Below are positions 9,950-43,406 of a DNA stretch of 64,000 nt, piece after piece. Under the pieces are notes generated by a model, which searched no databases, was not told the origin of the DNA, and saw only the letters and a program-made list of their open reading frames with translations. This DNA comes from Deltaproteobacteria bacterium GWA2_38_16. Its GTDB lineage: Bacteria > Bdellovibrionota > JACOXK01 > 2-02-FULL-40-11. How positions within the stretch are numbered: the first letter of the stretch is position 1; the number at the start of each line of letters is the position of its first letter. Where the stretch lies: positions 1-64,000 of the forward strand of contig MGPE01000006.1 in assembly GCA_001797335.1 (NCBI GenBank). The letters run 5' to 3'. Position numbers and translations under genes: made by a program.

Positions 9950-11349
9950 ATTCAAAAATTTTAATTGTCGATGACGAAGCGAATATTCGAAAGGTATTAA
10001 AGGCTCTCTTAGAACAAGAACACTATACCGTACATGAAGCACGAGATGGCATTGAAGCCCTTGCCCTTCTTAAAAAAGAAGAAATACATACTATTATTAC
10101 GGATCTTCGCATGCCCAATTTAGATGGCATGGGACTTTTAAAATCTGTTTCGAAGTCCTACCCTGACATTCCTGTCATTATCATTACAGCACATGAAAGT
10201 GTGGATTCCGCCGTTTCTGCTTTAAAACTGGGGGCCTTAGATTACATTTCAAAACCCTTTGATAAATTAGAAATGATGGACGTCGTCAAAAAAGCCATCA
10301 CTGTTTTTCATTCTAAATCCAAAGCTCCAACTGATAAAGAAATTCATTCAGAATTGGTCAATCATAGTCCTCAAATGAAAGAAGTCTTAAACATCATTAA
10401 AAAAGTAGCTGATAGCCCCTCCACCATTTTAATTACCGGTGAAAGCGGCACCGGAAAAGAATTGGCAGCTAGAGCACTTCATGAAAATAGCTCAAGATCT
10501 CAAAAACCGTTTATCACCATCAATTGTTCTGCTATCCCAGCCACTCTTATTGAATCTGAACTTTTTGGATATGAAAAAGGGGCTTTTACGGGGGCCGTTT
10601 CGGCCAAACCCGGTCGTTTTGAACTGGCAGATCAAGGAACCTTGTTTTTAGATGAAATTGCAGAAATCCCCCTTGAACTTCAGGCAAAGCTTTTAAGAGT
10701 TCTTCAAGAAAATGAGATTGAACGCGTGGGAAGTGTGAAAACTCTTAAAATTGATATTCGACTCATTACTGCCACCAATAAAGACCTTTTAGAAGAGGTT
10801 AAAAAGGGAACTTTTAGAGAAGATTTGTATTACAGACTCAACGTGGTTCCCATTTATCTCCCTCCCTTAAGAGAACGAAAAGAAGACTTTCCGCATTTAG
10901 TTGACTTTTTCATTCAAAAGTATAACAAAAAACTTGGAAAAAACATTCGCTCTATAGATAAAAACGCAATGGACATTCTCATGCAATACAAATGGCCTGG
11001 AAATATTAGAGAGCTTCAACATGTGATTGAACGGATGATTCTTTTAAGCGAAAAAGATATCTTAACCACAGAAAACTTACCTTCAGAAATGTCTCAGCTT
11101 TCAACTATTATGACCCCCAGCATTCGGCCTGAAGATTTTGCAGCACAAGGCTCTTTTAAAGATATCGTTAAAGAAACCACTCAAAAAATTGAAAAAAATT
11201 TGATTGTGAAGGCTTTGGAAGACACCCATGGCAATGTAACCAAGGCTGCAAAAATTCTTGGCATTAGCAGGAAAAGTCTGCAGAATAAAATGAAGGAATA
11301 TCAACTCAGAGATCCTTTGGCTCCCGATGTCGAAGAGGATTCTGAATAA
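9946..11349 (+). CDS. NtrC-family sigma-54-dependent response regulator
   Basis: Domains in order: receiver (1-120) with acidic pocket D9/D10, phosphoacceptor D53 (ITDLRMPNLDG) and K at SKPF; AAA+ sigma-54 interaction domain with Walker A GESGTGKE, the GAFTGA loop that contacts sigma-54 (EKGAFTGAV), Walker B GTLFLDEIAEIP and the R-finger region; C-terminal Fis-type helix-turn-helix GNVTKAAKILGISRKSLQNK. All key motifs are intact, so it should activate RpoN promoters when phosphorylated by the coupled kinase. It lies 17 bases before gdhA, so nitrogen or amino-acid control is a reasonable guess. Two strong sigma-54 promoters occur in this window at 40869 and 41833. Confidence 0.95.
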   Translation: MNSKILIVDDEANIRKVLKALLEQEHYTVHEARDGIEALALLKKEEIHTIITDLRMPNLDGMGLLKSVSKSYPDIPVIIITAHESVDSAVSALKLGALDYISKPFDKLEMMDVVKKAITVFHSKSKAPTDKEIHSELVNHSPQMKEVLNIIKKVADSPSTILITGESGTGKELAARALHENSSRSQKPFITINCSAIPATLIESELFGYEKGAFTGAVSAKPGRFELADQGTLFLDEIAEIPLELQAKLLRVLQENEIERVGSVKTLKIDIRLITATNKDLLEEVKKGTFREDLYYRLNVVPIYLPPLRERKEDFPHLVDFFIQKYNKKLGKNIRSIDKNAMDILMQYKWPGNIRELQHVIERMILLSEKDILTTENLPSEMSQLSTIMTPSIRPEDFAAQGSFKDIVKETTQKIEKNLIVKALEDTHGNVTKAAKILGISRKSLQNKMKEYQLRDPLAPDVEEDSE

Positions 11350-11366: not shown

Positions 11367-12644
11367 ATGAACAATGAACTTTTAAACATGGAATTGCTCT
11401 CCGGCCCTTTGTATCAAAATGCTATTCGCCAGTTGGATTTGGCCTGCGACACCATGAAGCTAGACCCAAATGTGGCAGCCCGTCTTAAATACCCCAAGCG
11501 AGCCCTGATTGTTTCTGTACCGGTACGCATGGATGATGGCCACATTAAGGTGTTTGAAGGATATCGTGTTCAACACAATATGACGCTTGGACCTGGAAAA
11601 GGAGGCATTCGATACCATCCTTCCGTAACACTCAGTGAAACAGCAGCTCTGGCTATGCTGATGACTTTAAAATGCGCTCTCTTTGGTCTACCTCTTGGAG
11701 GTGCTAAAGGCGGGGTACGATGTAATGCCAATCATATGTCTCGGGGTGAAAAGCAACGCCTTACCCGACGATACACCACTGAAATTGCAAATTTCATTGG
11801 CCCAGATAAAGACATTCCTGCTCCTGACATAGGAACCGATGAACAAACCATGGCCTGGATGATGGATACCTATAGCCAGCTCATTGGCTTTGCTATTCCA
11901 GGCGTTGTCACTGGAAAACCCCTTGAAGTAGGCGGCTCCTTAGGAAGAACAGATTCTACAGGACAAGGAGTAGCCTATTCCGTTATGTGTGCAGCAAAAC
12001 ACTTAGGCATTACCTTAGACAAAAACACAACCGTTGTAGTTCAAGGGTATGGAAAAGTAGGAGCCTCTGCGGCCAGGAAAATGAATAAAATTGGATGTAC
12101 TATTATTGGAGCCAGCGATGAAAACGGAGGAATTTATAATCCTAAAGGACTAGATCTTCAAAAAATCAGCGATCATTTAGCCGCGAAAAATCCTCTAAAT
12201 ACTTTTCCCGACGCTGAACCTGTAACAAATAGCGAACTCTTAGAACTGAAATGCGATGTTTTAATTCCAGCCGCTGTAGAATCTCAGATTACTGAAAAAA
12301 ATGCTGCTCGCATTAAATGTAAAATCTTAGCAGAAGGTGCCAATAGCCCAACCACTCAAGAAGCAGATCCTATTTTATATGACAAGGGCATATTTCTTAT
12401 TCCAGATATTTTGGCCAACGCGGGAGGCGTTACGGTTTCTTACTTTGAATGGGTCCAAGGACTTCAAAAATTCTTTTGGGATGAAAAAGAAGTTAATAAC
12501 CGACTTTGGAATATTATGTCCGACACCTTTGATAAAGTTATTCTGACTCAAAAAGAATTTAAAGTGAACATGCGTCTTTCAGCCTTGATTTCATCCATCA
12601 GACATTTGTCGAAGGCTATGCTTGTTCGCGGCTTCTTCCCGTAA
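11367..12644 (+). CDS. gdhA: Glutamate dehydrogenase (Glu/Leu/Phe/Val family)
   Basis: A 425-aa enzyme that interconverts glutamate and 2-oxoglutarate plus ammonia with NAD(P). The substrate lobe has GPGKGGIRYHPSV and PLGGAKGGV with the catalytic Lys, and PAPDIGTDEQTMAWMMDTYS. The Rossmann domain has VVVQGYGKVG. The C-terminal ANAGGVTVSYFEWVQGLQ is typical of the short hexameric family. AAGGAAACCC before the ATG serves as ribosome site. It follows the NtrC-type regulator with only 17 bases between, so it is probably in the same operon. Its last 54 bases overlap a convergent glycosyltransferase gene. Confidence 0.93.
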   Translation: MNNELLNMELLSGPLYQNAIRQLDLACDTMKLDPNVAARLKYPKRALIVSVPVRMDDGHIKVFEGYRVQHNMTLGPGKGGIRYHPSVTLSETAALAMLMTLKCALFGLPLGGAKGGVRCNANHMSRGEKQRLTRRYTTEIANFIGPDKDIPAPDIGTDEQTMAWMMDTYSQLIGFAIPGVVTGKPLEVGGSLGRTDSTGQGVAYSVMCAAKHLGITLDKNTTVVVQGYGKVGASAARKMNKIGCTIIGASDENGGIYNPKGLDLQKISDHLAAKNPLNTFPDAEPVTNSELLELKCDVLIPAAVESQITEKNAARIKCKILAEGANSPTTQEADPILYDKGIFLIPDILANAGGVTVSYFEWVQGLQKFFWDEKEVNNRLWNIMSDTFDKVILTQKEFKVNMRLSALISSIRHLSKAMLVRGFFP

Positions 12645-13886
12645 TACGTAATTCGTTATCACTAAAAAATATAGTAAAATATTGAAAAGCGGCCATATTT
12701 TAAAAACAAAGCTTACATATGTCTCTCCCTGATAGGGATATAGGTTAACAAGTTTCCATATTTTTGTGTGTGTAAAAAAAATAGCAACCCCACAAAGAGC
12801 AATCAAATATAAATTTGGATTCCGAAAATTTATTTTTTGAATACCTAGATGTACAAGACAATATATTAAAGGGAAAAAAAGTGTTACATTATTAGCAAGC
12901 CAACAATTTGGATTAAATAAGTTCATTAAAATAAATAAAATACTCAACACAAATAAATCCGAATGCTCTTTGTAATTGCAAATTCTTACCAATAAAAAAG
13001 GAAAAATCAGCATTAAAAATCCAATCATAATAGAAATCCCCATAATAAGGGTATTGGATAAAGATAAAACATTAAGCCCATAGTTCTCTGCAGTACCAAA
13101 ATAACGTCCTATTAATGCGTACAAAGACTGATTGGATATTCTAAAAATAACAATATCAGCATTACCACCTGCCTGAATAATAGAGCTGATCCAACTTGAA
13201 ATTAGACTTAAAGGAGCTGCTGGGTTTAAACATAAAACTGTCAATATATTCAACAATATAAAAGCAAGAATTGTTAAACCTATAAATCGAAAATCCCTTT
13301 TAAAAAGAAAAAAAATTAAAAATATTAATACTGGCAATTTAATAGCAATGGCCAGCGAAAAAAATATAGCACTATGCTTTCGTTTTTGATTACCATATGC
13401 CCATAAAGAGCCCAACACACACAGAAATAAAAGAATATCCGACTGACCAAGTGTAATTTCTGTTGTAACCGCTTTAATGAGAATCAGAAGCGCCAAGATA
13501 AATATACTTGCCCTAAATTGTATATTATATTTTAAAAATATTTTTTTTATAAGATAGAGGCATCCCATAAGAAATCCAATATTTGAAATTATCCATAAAA
13601 TAGAGCTAACCTGCATGCTAAAAAATCCATACGGCACAAGCAAAAGACTGATGACGGGTGCATATTTAAAAAAATCTGGCAAATTTGGATTTGAATATAC
13701 ATTTCCACCACCCCGGAGAATATATTTTCCAGTTTCATAAAAAACATTAAAATCCATGAGATAGATTGAAGAAAAATCCAAGAGGTAGCTAATTACAAAT
13801 CTACAAAATAAAAAAATAAAGATAATTAAAAAAATTATTGAGACATGGTCTAACCTATCAATAAATCTACAAAATATTTGTCTCAT
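12591..13886 (-). CDS. Glycosyltransferase family 87-like integral membrane protein
   Basis: A 431-aa polytopic protein with around ten hydrophobic helices. Near residue 44 it has DFNVFYETGKYILRGG followed by NVYSNP, the pattern seen in GT87 (DUF2029) polyprenol-phosphate-sugar mannosyltransferases. It probably transfers a sugar from a lipid carrier on the outer face of the inner membrane. The gene is visibly more A/T-rich than its neighbours, and its final 18 codons run antisense into the end of gdhA (12591-12644), as if the original stop was lost. A second membrane glycosyltransferase lies upstream. Donor and acceptor unknown. Confidence 0.75.
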   Translation of the reverse strand: MRQIFCRFIDRLDHVSIIFLIIFIFLFCRFVISYLLDFSSIYLMDFNVFYETGKYILRGGGNVYSNPNLPDFFKYAPVISLLLVPYGFFSMQVSSILWIISNIGFLMGCLYLIKKIFLKYNIQFRASIFILALLILIKAVTTEITLGQSDILLFLCVLGSLWAYGNQKRKHSAIFFSLAIAIKLPVLIFLIFFLFKRDFRFIGLTILAFILLNILTVLCLNPAAPLSLISSWISSIIQAGGNADIVIFRISNQSLYALIGRYFGTAENYGLNVLSLSNTLIMGISIMIGFLMLIFPFLLVRICNYKEHSDLFVLSILFILMNLFNPNCWLANNVTLFFPLIYCLVHLGIQKINFRNPNLYLIALCGVAIFFTHTKIWKLVNLYPYQGETYVSFVFKIWPLFNILLYFLVITNYVLREEAANKHSLRQMSDG

Positions 13887-37928: not shown

Positions 37929-37952
37929 TTTCTCTCCTTTATTTAGAAAACA

Positions 37953-37981
37953 CTTATATCTGAAACCAATTGCATCCTCAA
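37953..37981 (-). promoter_or_regulatory. Promoter of ndk
   Basis: On the minus strand TTGAGG (37976-37981), a 17-base spacer and TATAAG (37953-37958) form a sigma-70-type promoter. It predicts a start near 37946 and a leader of about 18 nt with the ribosome site AAAGGAG. It supports the short ndk start. Confidence 0.6.
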
Positions 37982-38099
37982 GTTTTTTGATGTTTGGATT
38001 AACGCAAAGGACATAGATGAAAAGTCTGTTTGGTTCCATAGTCTTCTAAAACAGCACTCAAGTGAACACAAAAAAGTTACAAAAAATACACATCTAGTA

Positions 38100-38128
38100 T
38101 TGACCTGCCGCAAGAATTGATTTAAAGC
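38100..38128 (+). promoter_or_regulatory. Probable promoter of the second TIGR02147 regulator
   Basis: TTGACC (38100-38105), a 17-base spacer and TAAAGC (38123-38128) stand immediately before the ATG at 38139. The -10 match is weak. If correct, transcription starts only a few bases before the ATG, and no ribosome site is visible, so the message would be leaderless or nearly so, like the other TIGR02147 gene. Confidence 0.4.
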
Positions 38129-38138
38129 AGTAACCCTG

Positions 38139-38966
38139 ATGCAGATAAATGTTTATGAATTTACAGACCCAAGGGAATTTTTGGTCAGTGTTTTAAAAGA
38201 AAAACAAACCGTAAACCCTAGATTTTCCCTTAGAACATGGTCAAGACAACTCGGGTTTTCTAGCCCCAATATGCTTTCTATGATTTTACGAGGGGAACGA
38301 TCGTTAAGACCCAAGGTAGTAACAAGCATCGCAGAAACTTTAAACTTAAAGGAAACTGAAAAAAAATATTTTGAGATTTTGACGGTCTTTTCCCGTGCCA
38401 AAACCCCAAATGAAAAAAATATTTACGCCAACATTTTAAAAGAAATTAGACCGGATAAGAAGTTTTCAACTTTAGCTCTTGATGAATTTAAATGCATTTC
38501 AGATTGGTATCACATTGCCGTTATTGAGATGCTAAGACTTAAAGACTTTAAAGAAGAGCCTTCATGGATTTCTAAACGCTTGGGATCAACAGTATCAACC
38601 CAAATAATTAAAGATGCCATTGCAAGGCTTTTTAGGCTTGGAATTTTAACAAGAGACAAGAGAGGAAAGCTTATTTGCCATAAGAAAGATTACTCTACAA
38701 CCTATGATGTACCTCATGAAGCAATTCAAAAGTTTCATACGCAAATGCTTGAGAAGGCACAAAATGCTTTAAAAGATCAGCCTGTGGATAAACGAGAAGT
38801 TTCTTCTATTACCTTTACGATCGATTCTTCCAAAATTAAAAAAGCAAAAGAAATGATTAGACGTTTCCAAGATGAACTTTCAAAGGTGATCTCTACGGAT
38901 AATGGAGATCAAACATATCAATTCAATGTTCAATTCTTTAACCTGACAGATGGAGGTCAAAAATGA
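38139..38966 (+). CDS. TIGR02147 / DUF4423 family transcriptional regulator, second copy
   Basis: A 275-aa paralogue of the regulator at 3480-4280. The N-terminal HTH part has FTDPREFLVSVLKE, SLRTWSRQLGFSSPNMLSMIL and EKKYFEILTVF. The DUF4423 part has CISDWYHIAVIEMLRL and SSITFTIDSSKIKKAKEMI, aligned with the same positions of the first copy. It overlaps the next secreted-protein gene by ATGA (38963-38966), exactly as the first copy overlaps its partner. Each regulator therefore seems dedicated to its coupled exported protein. The GTTGTC-N5-GACAAC palindrome is not present here, so its operator differs. Function and ligand unknown. Confidence 0.87.
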   Translation: MQINVYEFTDPREFLVSVLKEKQTVNPRFSLRTWSRQLGFSSPNMLSMILRGERSLRPKVVTSIAETLNLKETEKKYFEILTVFSRAKTPNEKNIYANILKEIRPDKKFSTLALDEFKCISDWYHIAVIEMLRLKDFKEEPSWISKRLGSTVSTQIIKDAIARLFRLGILTRDKRGKLICHKKDYSTTYDVPHEAIQKFHTQMLEKAQNALKDQPVDKREVSSITFTIDSSKIKKAKEMIRRFQDELSKVISTDNGDQTYQFNVQFFNLTDGGQK

Positions 38967-40621
38967 AAAAAATAATGTTTATACTCATAGTCATCCTACT
39001 TTCCTCATTAAGCTATGCGGATGTTAAAGTTGGGAATGGAGGAGATGTGGTTGTCTGCCGGAATGCATCAAATGAAATTACTTCTATCGAGGCTTTAGAT
39101 ATTTATGAGGGAAGGGTTCGGTGGCAGATTGAACTTGATTTAGGAGAGGCTTCTTTATTTCCACTTCAAAAAGTAGAATTAGCTCTCTCAAGATTAGGGC
39201 GTATTTCTTCTATCCGGGCTGAGCGGTATTTAGAAAAAGCCAAGCAGTTTGAAGCGGATGCGCTTTTTTTAGATAACACCGAACTTCCGGATATCTCTGA
39301 TTCTAATCATTTAATTTTTCCAAAAAACTGTAAAGTCGAACAAATTATTATTCAACGGACTCCTACTTTCCCTGATGATAGACGATATTTGATCAGCAAT
39401 GATCTTTGGAAACAATTAGACCCTACCAATAAAGCTGCTCTTATACTTCACGAAATTATTTATGGAGAAGCTCTTGAGTATGATCATCCAGATTCTGTTC
39501 CTACCCGTTACTTTAGTGCTCATCTCATGTCTCATCGTTTTGAGTCCTTTACCCCAAAGGAAATGGCTGATTTTTTAAAAATGATACGTTTTAGGAAGTT
39601 TGATTACCAAGGTTTTGTCTATGACAACAATGAGGAGTGCCACCGTCATCTTTCAGAGTATAGTCCTGATTGGCTTGAAATCCAATTTTATAATGATGGC
39701 GTAACCGTTGACAAGGGGTGTGTTTCAAGTGGCTCAGTTGTGGTTCAAGGAAAGACGCTCTCTATTAGGGGCCGAGTTTCATTCCATGATAATGGGCAAC
39801 CTCATGCTTTCTTTCCAAAATTTTCAGATTCTTTATCTCTGCAGATAGGCGAAAGAGAATATAGTGTAGAGAAGAGAGGTGAAATGCAACTCCATCCCGA
39901 TGGGAACTTAAAGTTTGTTAGGTTATTGTTAGATAATAAATATGAAACGGCTTTTAAATCTTCAACATATGATCTGATCGTTATTGATTCGCATGATTAT
40001 GGAGATTCAGAGGTGCTAAAAGTTGGTCTTTATCCCAATGGAATCATTAGTTCTCTTGAAACCTATGGTGGCCCGTCTTATTCTAGTCAAATTATGGGTT
40101 GGGGAATAATGCAAGGTCAAAAAATAAATATTTTCTCAGATCATGTTTATTTTTTCCCAGATGGAACTGTCAGGGGAGCTAGAATTTCTCGTGAAACTCC
40201 TTTAAATTTTACGATTGAAGGTCATCAGCTTAGATTTGCATCTGAAGTTGAACTTTATGATACAGGGACATTAAAAAAAGGGCTTTTTATAGCAGTCCCC
40301 CAAAATAATTTTTGGGGAACATCAGCCTACTTTGAAAAAGAAACCATTCTTCTTTCTGTTGGAGACAGTAAAGTTCTTTTTTTTCTGAAAGATAAAACCG
40401 ATGATTTTTCGGAAGGCCGATATATCCTTTTTTATCCTGGTTATAAAGTTCAATCTGGAAAGATTGCTCAGCGAACAACATTTAAAGCCGTTGATGGGCG
40501 AACTTTACGCATTCCGAAGGGATTTACAGGCTCTGAGGGTGCTCGAACTTTAAGCCTTCCAGCGGGAACGTGGGTTGTGTTAGATGAGAATGGGCGATTA
40601 CTACAGTGGCAGGAGGAGTAA
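38963..40621 (+). CDS. Large secreted protein paired with TIGR02147 regulator, 552 aa
   Basis: A signal peptide (MKKIMFILIVILLSSLSYA) leads to DVKVGNGGDVVVCRN, a start seen in a family of exported proteins of predatory Bdellovibrio-like bacteria (recalled). Residues about 150-175 contain ALILHEIIYGEALEYDH, which resembles a metalloprotease helix but lacks the second His of HExxH, so catalysis is uncertain. The second half (about 220-552) is beta-rich, with recurring units of the type L-Y/F-x-x-G-x-(V/I/L), such as VYFFPDGTVRGA, VELYDTGTLKKG and VGLYPNGIISS, like MORN or toxin-type beta repeats. Probably periplasmic or surface located. It is coupled to the upstream regulator. Confidence 0.72.
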   Translation: MKKIMFILIVILLSSLSYADVKVGNGGDVVVCRNASNEITSIEALDIYEGRVRWQIELDLGEASLFPLQKVELALSRLGRISSIRAERYLEKAKQFEADALFLDNTELPDISDSNHLIFPKNCKVEQIIIQRTPTFPDDRRYLISNDLWKQLDPTNKAALILHEIIYGEALEYDHPDSVPTRYFSAHLMSHRFESFTPKEMADFLKMIRFRKFDYQGFVYDNNEECHRHLSEYSPDWLEIQFYNDGVTVDKGCVSSGSVVVQGKTLSIRGRVSFHDNGQPHAFFPKFSDSLSLQIGEREYSVEKRGEMQLHPDGNLKFVRLLLDNKYETAFKSSTYDLIVIDSHDYGDSEVLKVGLYPNGIISSLETYGGPSYSSQIMGWGIMQGQKINIFSDHVYFFPDGTVRGARISRETPLNFTIEGHQLRFASEVELYDTGTLKKGLFIAVPQNNFWGTSAYFEKETILLSVGDSKVLFFLKDKTDDFSEGRYILFYPGYKVQSGKIAQRTTFKAVDGRTLRIPKGFTGSEGARTLSLPAGTWVVLDENGRLLQWQEE

Positions 40622-40623
40622 AT

Positions 40624-40746
40624 ATGAATCTGATTGGATATACCGTTCATTTACCACCTGTTGATGTTGATAGAGTCTATTTTGAAAGAACAGAAGACGA
40701 CAGATTCATTCAAAAAGACATCGCAGAGGAAACGAATCCTAAATAA
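40624..40746 (+). CDS. Small ORF, 40 aa, downstream of the secreted protein
   Basis: An ATG 2 bases after the preceding stop has the strong site AGGAGGAG at 40611-40618, which lies within the end of the secreted-protein gene. It encodes 40 residues starting MNLIGYTVHLPPVDVDR and ending in ETNPK. It is charged, with no signal peptide or membrane helix, and was not recognised. The close coupling and ribosome site argue that it is translated. It could be a truncated remnant of a longer gene. Confidence 0.45.
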   Translation: MNLIGYTVHLPPVDVDRVYFERTEDDRFIQKDIAEETNPK

Positions 40747-40822
40747 AAATAGCATCCATACCACTTGGACTGTGGGATACTTTTTAGGCGTTCTTCCATC
40801 CAAATAAGCGGGTAATCTTATC

Positions 40823-40838
40823 GGACGGTTTTCCGTCC
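40823..40838. promoter_or_regulatory. Perfect palindrome upstream of sigma-54 promoter 1
   Basis: GGACGG-TTTT-CCGTCC is a perfect 6-bp inverted repeat with a 4-bp spacer, 30 bases before the -24 box. It could be a site for an NtrC-type activator or another regulator, or a hairpin. Part of it (ACGGTTTTCCGTC) recurs as ACGGTTTTCAGTC at 41815-41827 before sigma-54 promoter 2. Confidence 0.45.
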
Positions 40839-40868
40839 ACATTTTTCGCATTTTAAGCTCAAAACCCC

Positions 40869-40885
40869 TGGCACAGGCTTTGCAT
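40869..40885 (+). promoter_or_regulatory. Sigma-54 (-24/-12) promoter 1
   Basis: TGGCAC-AGGCT-TTGCAT matches the RpoN consensus TGGCAC-N5-TTGCA, with exactly 10 bases between GG and GC. The predicted start is near 40895, 12 bases before the ATG at 40907. It needs an activator of the NtrC family such as the one at 9946-11349. Confidence 0.85.
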
Positions 40886-40906
40886 ATATGTGGTTCGGGA
40901 GGATTT

Positions 40907-41239
40907 ATGGTATCTAAGAGAACATTAGAGTGGAGAGACACCCAAAAGGATTATATTGAAAAATGGAGAATAAAAATAAAAGAACTACATCAGTTATCTT
41001 TTTTGGAACGATGGAATCAAGATAAGTTTGAGATGGAAGTTCTTCGTTTTATTGAGAACCAAAAGATGAAGGCTGTTTTTATCTTTGCAAAAAATTTTAT
41101 TGATCGTTATAAAGAAGGAAAATTTCAAAAAGAAATGGCACGAATTTATAAAGAAATTATTGATTATGGAGTGATTGAACCAAGTCGATTACATTACTTT
41201 TTTAATTTAATAGAAAACATGCGGAGGAAACAAAAATGA
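40907..41239 (+). CDS. Hypothetical protein, sigma-54 cassette 1, first ORF (110 aa)
   Basis: The ATG at 40907 is preceded by GGGAGGA (40897-40903) and a sigma-54 promoter. It encodes a 110-aa basic, Lys/Arg-rich helical protein starting MVSKRTLEWRDTQKD and ending NLIENMRRKQK. There is no signal peptide or membrane helix, so it is cytosolic. The many Phe/Trp/Lys residues could suit nucleic-acid or protein binding, but no family was recognised. It overlaps the next ORF as ATGA (41236-41239). Confidence 0.65.
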   Translation: MVSKRTLEWRDTQKDYIEKWRIKIKELHQLSFLERWNQDKFEMEVLRFIENQKMKAVFIFAKNFIDRYKEGKFQKEMARIYKEIIDYGVIEPSRLHYFFNLIENMRRKQK

Positions 41240-41499
41240 AACAGTGTAAAAAACCGTTTGATATTTATGAATATCTTAAAGAACTTTCCAGGTTTTCTAA
41301 AAATGCCCCTGAAACGGATGAACAGATGAAACAAGTTTGCCAGGAATTTGAACGCAGCATGGATAATATGAGCGAAGAAGAAAAAGAGAAATTAAGAGGA
41401 GTTTTTGTAAAATGTGATGAGGATGCCAAGGCTGATCGAGCTTATCAAAAAAAGAAAAGCGTAGCTCCTCTTTCTAAATCAACAGAAACTACCTTTTAA
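41236..41499 (+). CDS. Hypothetical protein, sigma-54 cassette 1, second ORF (87 aa)
   Basis: An 87-aa acidic helical protein with four Cys spread along it (residues 4, 34, 60 region) and a basic, Ser/Thr-rich tail. A GCGGAGG site lies before its ATG inside the previous ORF, and the two genes overlap by ATGA. The basic first product with an acidic second product recalls small two-component modules such as toxin-antitoxin pairs, but no such family was recognised. The stop at 41499 lies 11 bases before the free copy of the sucD-end repeat. Confidence 0.62.
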   Translation: MKQCKKPFDIYEYLKELSRFSKNAPETDEQMKQVCQEFERSMDNMSEEEKEKLRGVFVKCDEDAKADRAYQKKKSVAPLSKSTETTF

Positions 41500-41510
41500 A
41501 TTACAATTAC

Positions 41511-41551
41511 GATAAAACTTTTGCGACGGTTTCGCCGATATCGGCGGGGCT
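41511..41551. repeat. 41-bp direct repeat, free copy of the sucD 3' end
   Basis: This sequence matches 40 of 41 bases of 42538-42578, which is the true end of sucD. On the minus strand it would encode [13 protein letters not shown], and the one mismatch (CCC for CCT) would be a silent proline change. No longer sucD remnant is attached. It contains the palindrome GCCGATATCGGC (41534-41545). A detached gene end with a silent change is typical of site-specific insertion at the 3' end of a gene. Confidence 0.8.
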
Positions 41552-41832
41552 TTGGAACCTCTCCCCTCCTCCCCTCACGCCAGCTTCTTAGGTACCACCC
41601 TTTTTGGTGGACTTGGTACTCTTTGGTTTTATGTTTATATTTATATGAGTTGTATTAGTTACTCTCTTCCGAATGGTATCTACAGATAACGAAATCACTA
41701 GATGATCTCTTTTGACCATTTGCATCATCAAAATAGACGGTAACTTTCGTAGTAACTTAAATATCAAAGCATCGCTTTCAGCATGAATTAGTGCTTAGAT
41801 GTTCAGCATATCAAACGGTTTTCAGTCACCCC

Positions 41833-41849
41833 TGGCACAAGGATTGCAT
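41833..41849 (+). promoter_or_regulatory. Sigma-54 (-24/-12) promoter 2
   Basis: TGGCAC-AAGGA-TTGCAT has the exact RpoN spacing (10 bases between GG and GC). It shares the flanks CCCC and AT with promoter 1. The predicted start is about 41859, two bases before the ATG at 41861, so the transcript would be leaderless; indeed no ribosome site precedes that ATG. Confidence 0.85.
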
Positions 41850-41860
41850 ATCCTGCCGCT

Positions 41861-42229
41861 ATGGGAAAATATGCTACTCATTATACAGATGCAGAACTGA
41901 AAGCTATTACAGAACAATGGTTAAAAGATAAAAAACGCATTGACGCTGATCCGACGTTTGAATACTATCTCGATAAAGATAGAGAGTATGGACGACACCT
42001 CAATAATAAAAATTTACAGCTCTTGTTTCGTCATACATCCAGATTGTATTGGAACGGTATTGTAAGATCAGATTTTTTGCTTCACCCTAGGGAAAAATCG
42101 TTTATACCAAAAGTTTACGAAAAGATAAAAGAAGATGGATATTACACGAGATCTAAAGAGACGGAAAAGAAAATCAGAGTGTGGTCTGCTCATGCCTGTT
42201 CCAGGCAAACCCGTCCAAAACAGTCTTGA
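41861..42229 (+). CDS. Hypothetical protein, sigma-54 cassette 2, first ORF (122 aa)
   Basis: A 122-aa basic, Tyr/Lys/Arg-rich protein starting MGKYATHYTDAELKAITEQ. The first 100 residues look helical; the last 20 ([15 protein letters not shown]) overlap the next ORF and may be poorly constrained. No domain, signal peptide or membrane helix was recognised. Transcription from the sigma-54 promoter would begin two bases before the ATG, so initiation is probably leaderless. Like the first ORF of cassette 1 it is basic and is followed by an acidic partner. Confidence 0.65.
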   Translation: MGKYATHYTDAELKAITEQWLKDKKRIDADPTFEYYLDKDREYGRHLNNKNLQLLFRHTSRLYWNGIVRSDFLLHPREKSFIPKVYEKIKEDGYYTRSKETEKKIRVWSAHACSRQTRPKQS

Positions 42230-42542
42230 TGAAGAAAACAAAATTATGTTAGAAAATGGTGAAATTATTGAAATACCAGATGATATAAAAAGTTTACCAG
42301 AATTCGATTGGGATGATCCTAAAACTCAAGAATGGGTGAATGAAGAAGAAAAACAGCATATTAAAAAATATGGGAAATTGACCACAGAACAAATGACTCA
42401 AATCTATAAGACAAAATGCCAATTTTTAAATGATGATCCTTCTCTTGATCCAAAGAAAGCCTTTGATCTAGCCTGGGAAAAAACCTTACAAAAGAAATTA
42501 TCTCCACACATTGCCCGAGAAAATTTAAGAAAATTAAGATAA
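42192..42542 (+). CDS. Hypothetical protein, sigma-54 cassette 2, second ORF (116 aa)
   Basis: An acidic protein that overlaps the first ORF by 38 bases in another frame. The ATG at 42192 ([11 protein letters not shown]) is a choice; the frame is open further upstream, and an ATG at 42246 ([13 protein letters not shown]) also fits. The middle is rich in Asp/Glu ([18 protein letters not shown]) and the end is basic ([13 protein letters not shown]). The TAA at 42540-42542 lies inside the 41-bp repeat, and the gene overlaps convergent sucD by 9 bases. Not recognised. Confidence 0.58.
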
Positions 42543-43402
42543 AACTTTTGCGACGGTTTCGCCGATATCGGCAGGGCTCAAGGCAACATGCACACCAGCG
42601 GATTTTAGCGCTTGAATTTTTTCTTTGGCTGTCCCCTTGCCTCCTGCAATAATGGCACCCGCATGGCCCATTCTTTTTCCAGCAGGAGCGGTGGTTCCCG
42701 CAATAAAACTAATCACTGGTTTTTTAACATCTCGTTTAATAAAATCTGCAGCTTCTTCTTCGGCCGTTCCCCCAATTTCTCCGATCATCACAATGGCGTC
42801 GGTATCTTTATCTTTTTCAAAAAGTCCTAGTAAATCAATAAAATTAGTTCCAATTACCGGATCTCCACCAATTCCAATACAAGTTGACTGACCAAGCCCC
42901 AAGCGTGTGAGTTGATCCACGGCTTCATAGGTCAGCGTACCACTTCGAGAAATAACTCCCACACGTCCTTTCTTATGAATATGCCCTGGCATAATGCCAA
43001 TTTTACATTCTCCAGGCGTAATTACCCCGGGACAATTGGGACCCACCAAACGAGTTTTAGATTGTTTTTTAAGAATTTGTTTAATTTTTAATACATCTAA
43101 TGCTGGAATTCCTTCGGTAATACAAATGACTAAATCTAAAGCAGCATCAATAGCCTCGCGAATCGCGGCTGCAGCAAACTTGGGAGGAACAAAAATAACT
43201 GAAGCACTGGCTCCTGTTTTTTCTTTGGCTTCTTTCACAGAATTAAAAACAGGGATTTCATCTACAACTTCTCCCCCTTTTTGAGGGGTAACACCGGCTA
43301 CGATTTTCGTCCCATAAGCCACACACTGTCTGGCATGAAAGGTTCCTTCTTTCCCCGTAAGACCTTGAACCAATACTTTTGTGTCTTTATTGACTAAGAT
43401 AC

Positions 43403-43406
<4 letters not shown>
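42534..43406 (-). CDS. sucD: Succinyl-CoA synthetase alpha subunit
   Basis: A 290-aa subunit forming succinyl-CoA/succinate with SucC and making ATP or [21 protein letters not shown] binds Co[21 protein letters not shown] follows, and the phosphohistidine is His248 in [14 protein letters not shown]. The gene is complete to its stop at 42534. It overlaps sucC by ATGA (43403-43406) and a convergent small ORF by 9 bases. Its last 41 bases are the sequence repeated at 41511. Confidence 0.96.
42538..42578. repeat. 41-bp direct repeat, copy within the sucD 3' end
   Basis: This copy codes for the last residues of SucD ([13 protein letters not shown]) on the minus strand. It matches the free copy at 41511-41551 in 40 of 41 bases. 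It includes the palindrome GCCGATATCGGC (42561-42572) and the stop of the convergent ORF. It is the presumed insertion target. Confidence 0.8.

Follow-up and report, generated by a model that had tools for sequence, protein, structure and literature searches.

Two putative toxin-antitoxin gene pairs under a shared sigma-54 promoter module between sucD and ndk, and a candidate integrase-free route for their insertion

The window analysed here is a 64-kb stretch of contig 6 from a 2.0-Mb genome, which is assembled in 19 contigs and rated 100% complete. Within the window, sucD and ndk are separated by a 4.6-kb block of genes on the opposite strand, including two small-gene units (unit 1 and unit 2; Table 1). 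Each unit has a sigma-54 promoter and two small genes that are adjacent or overlap in one operon, as in the layout of type II toxin-antitoxin (TA) systems. A copy of the sucD 3' end is detached from the gene and stands between the units, and it is separated from unit 2 by a spacer in which an Rfam search for structured RNA gave no match. TIGR02147-type regulator genes lie near loci of this kind at three places (38139-40621 in the window; L067 3532-5722; L045 514-1311), at two of them beside a large secreted protein gene.

Table 1. Positions of features in and around the block between ndk and sucD (window coordinates)
Feature	Position	Strand	Basis or remarks
Lineage-specific block, ndk to sucD	37929..42533	.	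TIGR02147 gene, secreted protein gene, unit 1, unit 2
TIGR02147 gene	38139-38966		within block; TIGR02147 E 3e-61
Gene for 552-aa secreted protein	38963-40621		within block; ORF listing
Unit 1, full sigma-54 promoter module	40819..40887	+	dyad 40823-40838, TTTTAAGCTCAAAA, -24/-12 core 40869-40883; model R1 E 1.9e-22, alignment
Unit 1 ORF1	40907..41239	+	110 aa, basic, putative toxin
Unit 1 ORF2	41236..41499	+	87 aa, putative antitoxin or partner
Detached copy of sucD 3' end, 47 bp	41505..41551	-	repeat comparison
Spacer between detached sucD end and unit 2 module	41552..41804	.	no ORF, no RNA family
Unit 2, broken promoter module	41805..41851	+	mutated dyad, ~27 bp missing, -24/-12 core intact 41833-41847
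Unit 2 ORF1	41861..42229	+	122 aa, basic, five-helix predicted fold, putative toxin
Unit 2 ORF2	42135..42542	+	135 aa, putative antitoxin or partner; ends inside sucD repeat
Real sucD 3' end, second repeat copy	42532..42578	-	repeat comparison
sucD (succinyl-CoA ligase subunit alpha)	42534..43406	-	Pfam CoA_binding + Ligase_CoA

The two -24/-12 sigma-54 promoters claimed by the first-pass annotation were confirmed (TGGCACAGGCTTTGCA at 40869 and TGGCACAAGGATTGCA at 41833). They are the only sites in the 64-kb window that match TGGCAC-N5-TTGCW, with 0.02 expected, and none of 100 shuffles of the window reached two, which rules out chance. A genome search for such promoters, and then for a dyad upstream of them, showed these sites to be the core element of a 72-bp module, of which the genome has 11 full copies in addition to the broken one of unit 2. 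The 11 copies have a mean column identity of 89% and constant spacing, and they run from a dyad (GGACGGTTTTCCGTCC; GGACGG-N4-CCGTCC, conserved as 6-4-6) through a T-rich spacer and TTTGAGCTCAAA to TGGCAC-N5-TTGCA. The module of unit 2 has kept its -24/-12 core, while its dyad is mutated, about 27 bp are absent relative to its relatives and only positions 48-71 of model R1 are matched. The genome encodes rpoN (E 2.9e-134) and eight Sigma54_activat genes, one of which, with an FHA domain, lies inside an operon that the module itself precedes. The dyad would be the site of an activator, and this FHA-type sigma-54 enhancer-binding protein, from one of the module's own Tad operons, is the probable candidate. 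A variant sigma-54 promoter with a longer distance from dyad to -24 element occurs at two places (L104 1501-1607, i.e. C6:115542, where it lies before a repetitive coiled-coil gene, and C4:26652-26755).

Three of the four ORFs (40907-41239, 41236-41499 and 41861-42229) stand as first annotated, as does the end of the fourth at 42542. The start of the latter, given as 42192, is most likely 42135 (MDITRDLK...), since this start and the out-of-frame overlap of about 95 nt with ORF1 are conserved in the family. The overlap (42135-42229 in the window) was found in most members read and is unusually long for a conserved one. The proposed order of a basic first and an acidic second protein holds only loosely, with pI values of 9.7 and 6.3 in unit 1 and of 9.6 and 6.8 in unit 2, or 5.3 when the shorter ORF2 is taken. 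None of the four proteins had been recognised at first reading, and profile searches of Pfam, NCBIfam and PADLOC likewise gave no family match. Structure prediction yielded a confident five-helix model for unit 2 ORF1, for which Foldseek found no match among the solved or viral structures searched; the single-sequence model of unit 1 ORF1 (pLDDT 52) was too poor for use.

The two units belong to different gene families. The proteins encoded by their first ORFs resemble each other weakly (hhalign probability 3-8%) and no DNA is shared beyond the promoter, so that unit 2 was rejected as a copy of unit 1. Both unit 1 proteins have paralogs in L045 (55% identical for ORF1 and 53% for ORF2), and ORF1 also has a homolog in G001; no match to it was found in viral contigs. 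The unit 2 ORF1 family is patchy, occurring in 9 of the 369 genomes searched in the phylum, and the named relatives to which this protein led are MAGs entered as Deltaproteobacteria bacterium, two with a groundwater label. A phage or plasmid origin of unit 2 ORF1 was considered and rejected, as viral contigs, phages and plasmids gave no match.

The layout of promoter and gene pair, noted at first in the window, recurs at many loci in this genome and its relatives. In this genome the module precedes an operon of secretin, CpaF-type ATPase and FHA-type sigma-54 activator, another of Flp pilin and TadE, and the DNA-uptake helper gene comM, which has a RelE/ParE-type toxin gene (TIGR02683) and a small partner gene behind it. 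It also stands before a RelE/HigB-like + HTH pair, a DUF4258 + MqsA-like pair, unit 1, the unit 1 paralog pair, three unit 2 relatives and one coiled-coil protein gene; several of the matches that name these pairs score below curated cut-offs. The TIGR02683 toxin gene and its partner trail comM as if in one operon (L046 705-1302). A sequence model search found diverged copies of the module, with the dyad GGWCGG-N4-CCGWCC, in the same-family genomes G001-G005; in G005, as outside the family, the matches are weak and could be due to chance. One copy lies directly before the secretin gene in G004, and in G001 an ORF6N gene lies between module and secretin. Other same-family copies precede ComM, BrnT-BrnA and a TadE operon; coiled-coil proteins, a unit 2 pair and a homolog of unit 1 ORF1 also stand behind such copies. 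Small coiled-coil proteins recur behind the module in several genomes of the family (L047 2907-3404, L085 1105-1434, L077 1630-2148, L096 278-577).

Putative mobile promoters are promoter-sized sequences that are repeated nearly identically around a genome. The module resembles them as a promoter-sized, near-identical genome-wide repeat, but it differs in its fixed spacing, its position just upstream of genes and its recurring targets across the family, and for these reasons it fits a regulon. The sigma-54 promoters of units 1 and 2 are thus part of a host regulon as much as part of a cassette, because promoters of this kind also drive the Tad pilus operons and comM; the sharing of one module type by these genes and the TA-like pairs, including the link to ComM, was read from sequence. 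Under such control the pairs would be switched on alongside pilus and competence-type functions. No precedent for several unrelated pairs under one sigma-54 module was found in the literature searched.

In this genome and in G003, known TA pairs stand behind the module in the way these units do. Together with gene order, charge and patchy distribution, this suggests that units 1 and 2 are TA systems. An alternative, which we regard as a minority possibility, is that the pairs serve the Tad/comM regulon as regulators, as defence genes or as effector-immunity pairs, perhaps together with the pilus. Such roles would accord with a promoter module common to the pairs, the Tad operons, comM and coiled-coil proteins, with the missing TA family match and with the finding that Tad-type pili kill prey in Myxococcus (PMC12075869). 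They agree less well with the known TA pairs behind the module, with the lack of any export signal noticed by eye, and with the occurrence of the unit 2 pair elsewhere without the module. Beyond the family, and also in G004, no module was seen before this pair, which makes gene pair and promoter separable.

The duplicated sucD end reported by the first-pass annotation is real, but it measures 47 bp with two differences (96% match) rather than 41 bp with one. Both differences are silent in sucD, as had been said of the first (CCC/CCT, Pro; TCG/TCT, Ser), and both copies translate to the same 14-residue sucD end. Querying the whole genome with 41400-41700 yielded no third copy of the repeat. In seven sampled relatives (G001-G007, five from the same family and two from the same class), as well as in the more distant G011, sucD is directly followed by ndk on the same strand; the same-family relatives represent other genera. 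The adjacency in the seven relatives indicates that the block was added in this lineage, and it supports the earlier proposal that RpoN-type gene pairs were added behind sucD. Since a sucD-end copy stands between the two units, unit 2 and the spacer are most simply seen as the later arrival.

The duplication of gene ends across inserts proved to be a genome-wide pattern. We scanned 1.66 Mb of the genome for direct repeats of at least 26 bp and at least 90% identity lying 250 bp to 12 kb apart, and scored a scar where an ORF of 100 codons or more had its stop codon 0-11 nt before the end of one copy; genes were named by eye. Among 18 repeat families not purely within genes, eight were such scars, in which the last 30-87 bp of a gene are duplicated across an insert. 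Random placement gave a mean of 0.38 gene-end cases and a maximum of 4 in 5,000 trials. The affected genes are sucD (47 bp), a 257-aa gene near the comM operon (48 bp), a thiI-like gene (30 bp), mgtE (45 bp), a 367-aa gene (51 bp), a gspN-like gene (87 bp), an outer-membrane-type gene (34 bp) and an acetyl-CoA acetyltransferase gene (45 bp). The weakest of the eight is the scar around a RelE/HigB-HTH pair, whose 30-bp repeat is a hairpin element that also forms the thiI-like gene end.

Recognised TA genes are present in four of the eight inserts, against 0.16 expected, an enrichment that is biased because some query proteins came from the inserts. The inserts hold the RelE/HigB-HTH pair, an MNT-HEPN pair, a lone XRE gene, two unit-2-type pairs and a Gp49-HTH pair, which has a subtilase gene as its neighbour in a tandem array of three repeat copies; in the remaining two, no recognised TA gene was found. 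The HEPN gene ends inside its repeat, and the stop codon of unit 2 ORF2 likewise lies inside the sucD repeat. In the tandem array, three near-identical 42-48-bp copies of an mgtE-like 3' end (L176, C2:220001-240000, at 9985-10026, 12401-12448 and 13188-13232) enclose the Gp49/HTH TA pair in one interval and the subtilase gene in the other, and the far copy is now also the end of a P-type-ATPase-like ORF on the opposite strand. HicA and its neighbours are also flanked by a repeat, in this case of a gene start. The scar pattern is carried by one genome: samples of G011 (0.4 Mb) and mainly of G002 (0.34 Mb) held no clear case, and the pattern may therefore be particular to this lineage.

A free sucD end could also come from tandem duplication or replication slippage unrelated to the arrival of unit 2. 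A single 47-bp repeat could arise in this way, and the later internal deletion in the gspN-like scar indicates that such places do rearrange. However, unit 2 is no duplicate of unit 1, as they are different gene families, and gene-end repeats occur at eight loci, far above chance, several with recognised TA genes in the insert. We therefore consider local rearrangement very unlikely.

The first-pass annotation had envisaged a cassette-type system with a dedicated recombinase, and this was not supported. The only tyrosine recombinases in the genome are XerD and XerC, the latter beside hslV; the eight repeats vary in length and have no common core by inspection; and the sucD end is not repeated further. 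Three serine recombinases are encoded, each of which would be expected to need one fixed site and could hardly serve eight unrelated ones. Two serine recombinase genes form a close pair, less than 4 kb apart (C10:23840-27590; 501 and 204 codons open), likely in a mobile element. Capture of the XerCD/dif type was rejected, the repeats being neither alike nor dif-like as judged by eye. Site-specific integration would make unit 2 a mobile cassette that is not autonomous, has the sucD 3' end as its att site and depends on a recombinase acting in trans, with other cassettes using other gene ends. The inserts are indeed flanked by direct repeats of gene 3' ends, the mgtE array has two inserts among three near-identical repeats, and half of the eight repeats fall at 45-48 bp (45, 45, 47 and 48, with another at 51). 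Against this, repeat length varies between 30 and 87 bp, none of the inserts read showed a recombinase gene, and the recombinases listed above offer no ready candidate. We think integration of this kind improbable.

Homology-anchored insertion without an integrase is favoured over a cassette recombinase. Incoming DNA would have carried unit 2 convergent to the end of a sucD gene; on one side it would have recombined with the resident sucD by homology, and on the other it would have been closed by an illegitimate joint. Such an event would leave the two units separated by 47 bp from the resident sucD end, the scar of the later insertion, and the same process may have produced the seven other gene-end scars, often around TA genes. 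If donor and recipient share a gene and diverge just past its stop codon, as in homology-facilitated illegitimate recombination, every repeat would end there while its other edge varies. Entry of the DNA by transformation is plausible, since ComM, Tad pili and, by inspection, a ComEC-type ORF are present; Tad pili serve DNA uptake in Liberibacter crescens (PMC8513845). Several findings count against this reading. A random illegitimate joint predicts no clustering of repeats near 45-48 bp, and homology-facilitated illegitimate recombination is rare in experiments (PMC5361080). The module in front of unit 2 is broken, and copies elsewhere also precede non-TA genes, coiled-coil ones among them. 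No TA family matches the proteins of units 1 and 2, the predicted fold of unit 2 ORF1 resembles none known, and the unit 2 pair lacks the module outside the family. The samples of two other genomes held no gene-end scars. On balance, and with modest confidence, we hold it probable that units 1 and 2 are two different TA-like pairs which this lineage acquired between sucD and ndk, which belong to a host sigma-54 regulon and which were inserted without an integrase.

Two known processes, long target duplication and homology-facilitated illegitimate recombination, predict what is seen. The former has been described for restriction-modification systems (Nobusato et al. 2000, as cited in PMC3874152, PMC3031569 and PMC2654758). 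As far as these citing papers describe it, it shares with the present case a selfish-type gene pair, a long and variable direct target repeat, which is found here on both sides of the insert, and no transposase. The cargo here is TA or TA-like, in contrast, the repeats are of 30-87 bp rather than about 100 bp, and they end just past the stop codon of the gene. The latter process has been proposed for the addition of effector-immunity modules in Vibrio cholerae (PMC5361080), where one homologous anchor and one illegitimate joint likewise leave a displaced piece of a gene 3' end and repeated events build arrays. Here, however, the ends of housekeeping genes at many loci provide the anchors, and the pairs do not make up an effector set of a secretion system. 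Integron cassettes and the integrative elements of gene 3' ends also include small promoter-bearing TA units and restore the target gene end, but this genome has no integron-type or phage-type tyrosine recombinase and its repeats no shared att site.

A close parallel in regulation is toxTA of Haemophilus influenzae, a HigB-type TA operon that was acquired horizontally and is controlled by competence (PMC6957337). In the present genome the same predicted module lies before TA-like pairs, comM and the Tad operons. The H. influenzae case is one operon under CRP-S, whereas here several unrelated pairs share one sigma-54 module with Tad and comM genes, and their control is predicted. How the TA operon came under competence control was not known to the authors of that study (PMC6957337).

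How TA genes pass from one chromosome to another when no phage, plasmid or integron carries them is poorly understood. The near-identical gene-end scars make an integrase-free insertion route testable from sequence, and the eight similar scars suggest that such pairs come to lie beside gene ends with no dedicated recombinase involved. Two unrecognised families of protein pairs are involved, one with a confidently predicted fold that matches nothing in the libraries searched, and one sigma-54 module is common to pilus genes, comM and several TA or TA-like pairs that are unrelated to one another. It is a tentative and rather doubtful further step, but the sigma-54 pilus and competence regulon may be a capture platform, in which the module and housekeeping gene ends would act as homology anchors for transforming DNA, which would bring in TA-type pairs again and again, including two TA families not described before, that are switched on in the competent state.
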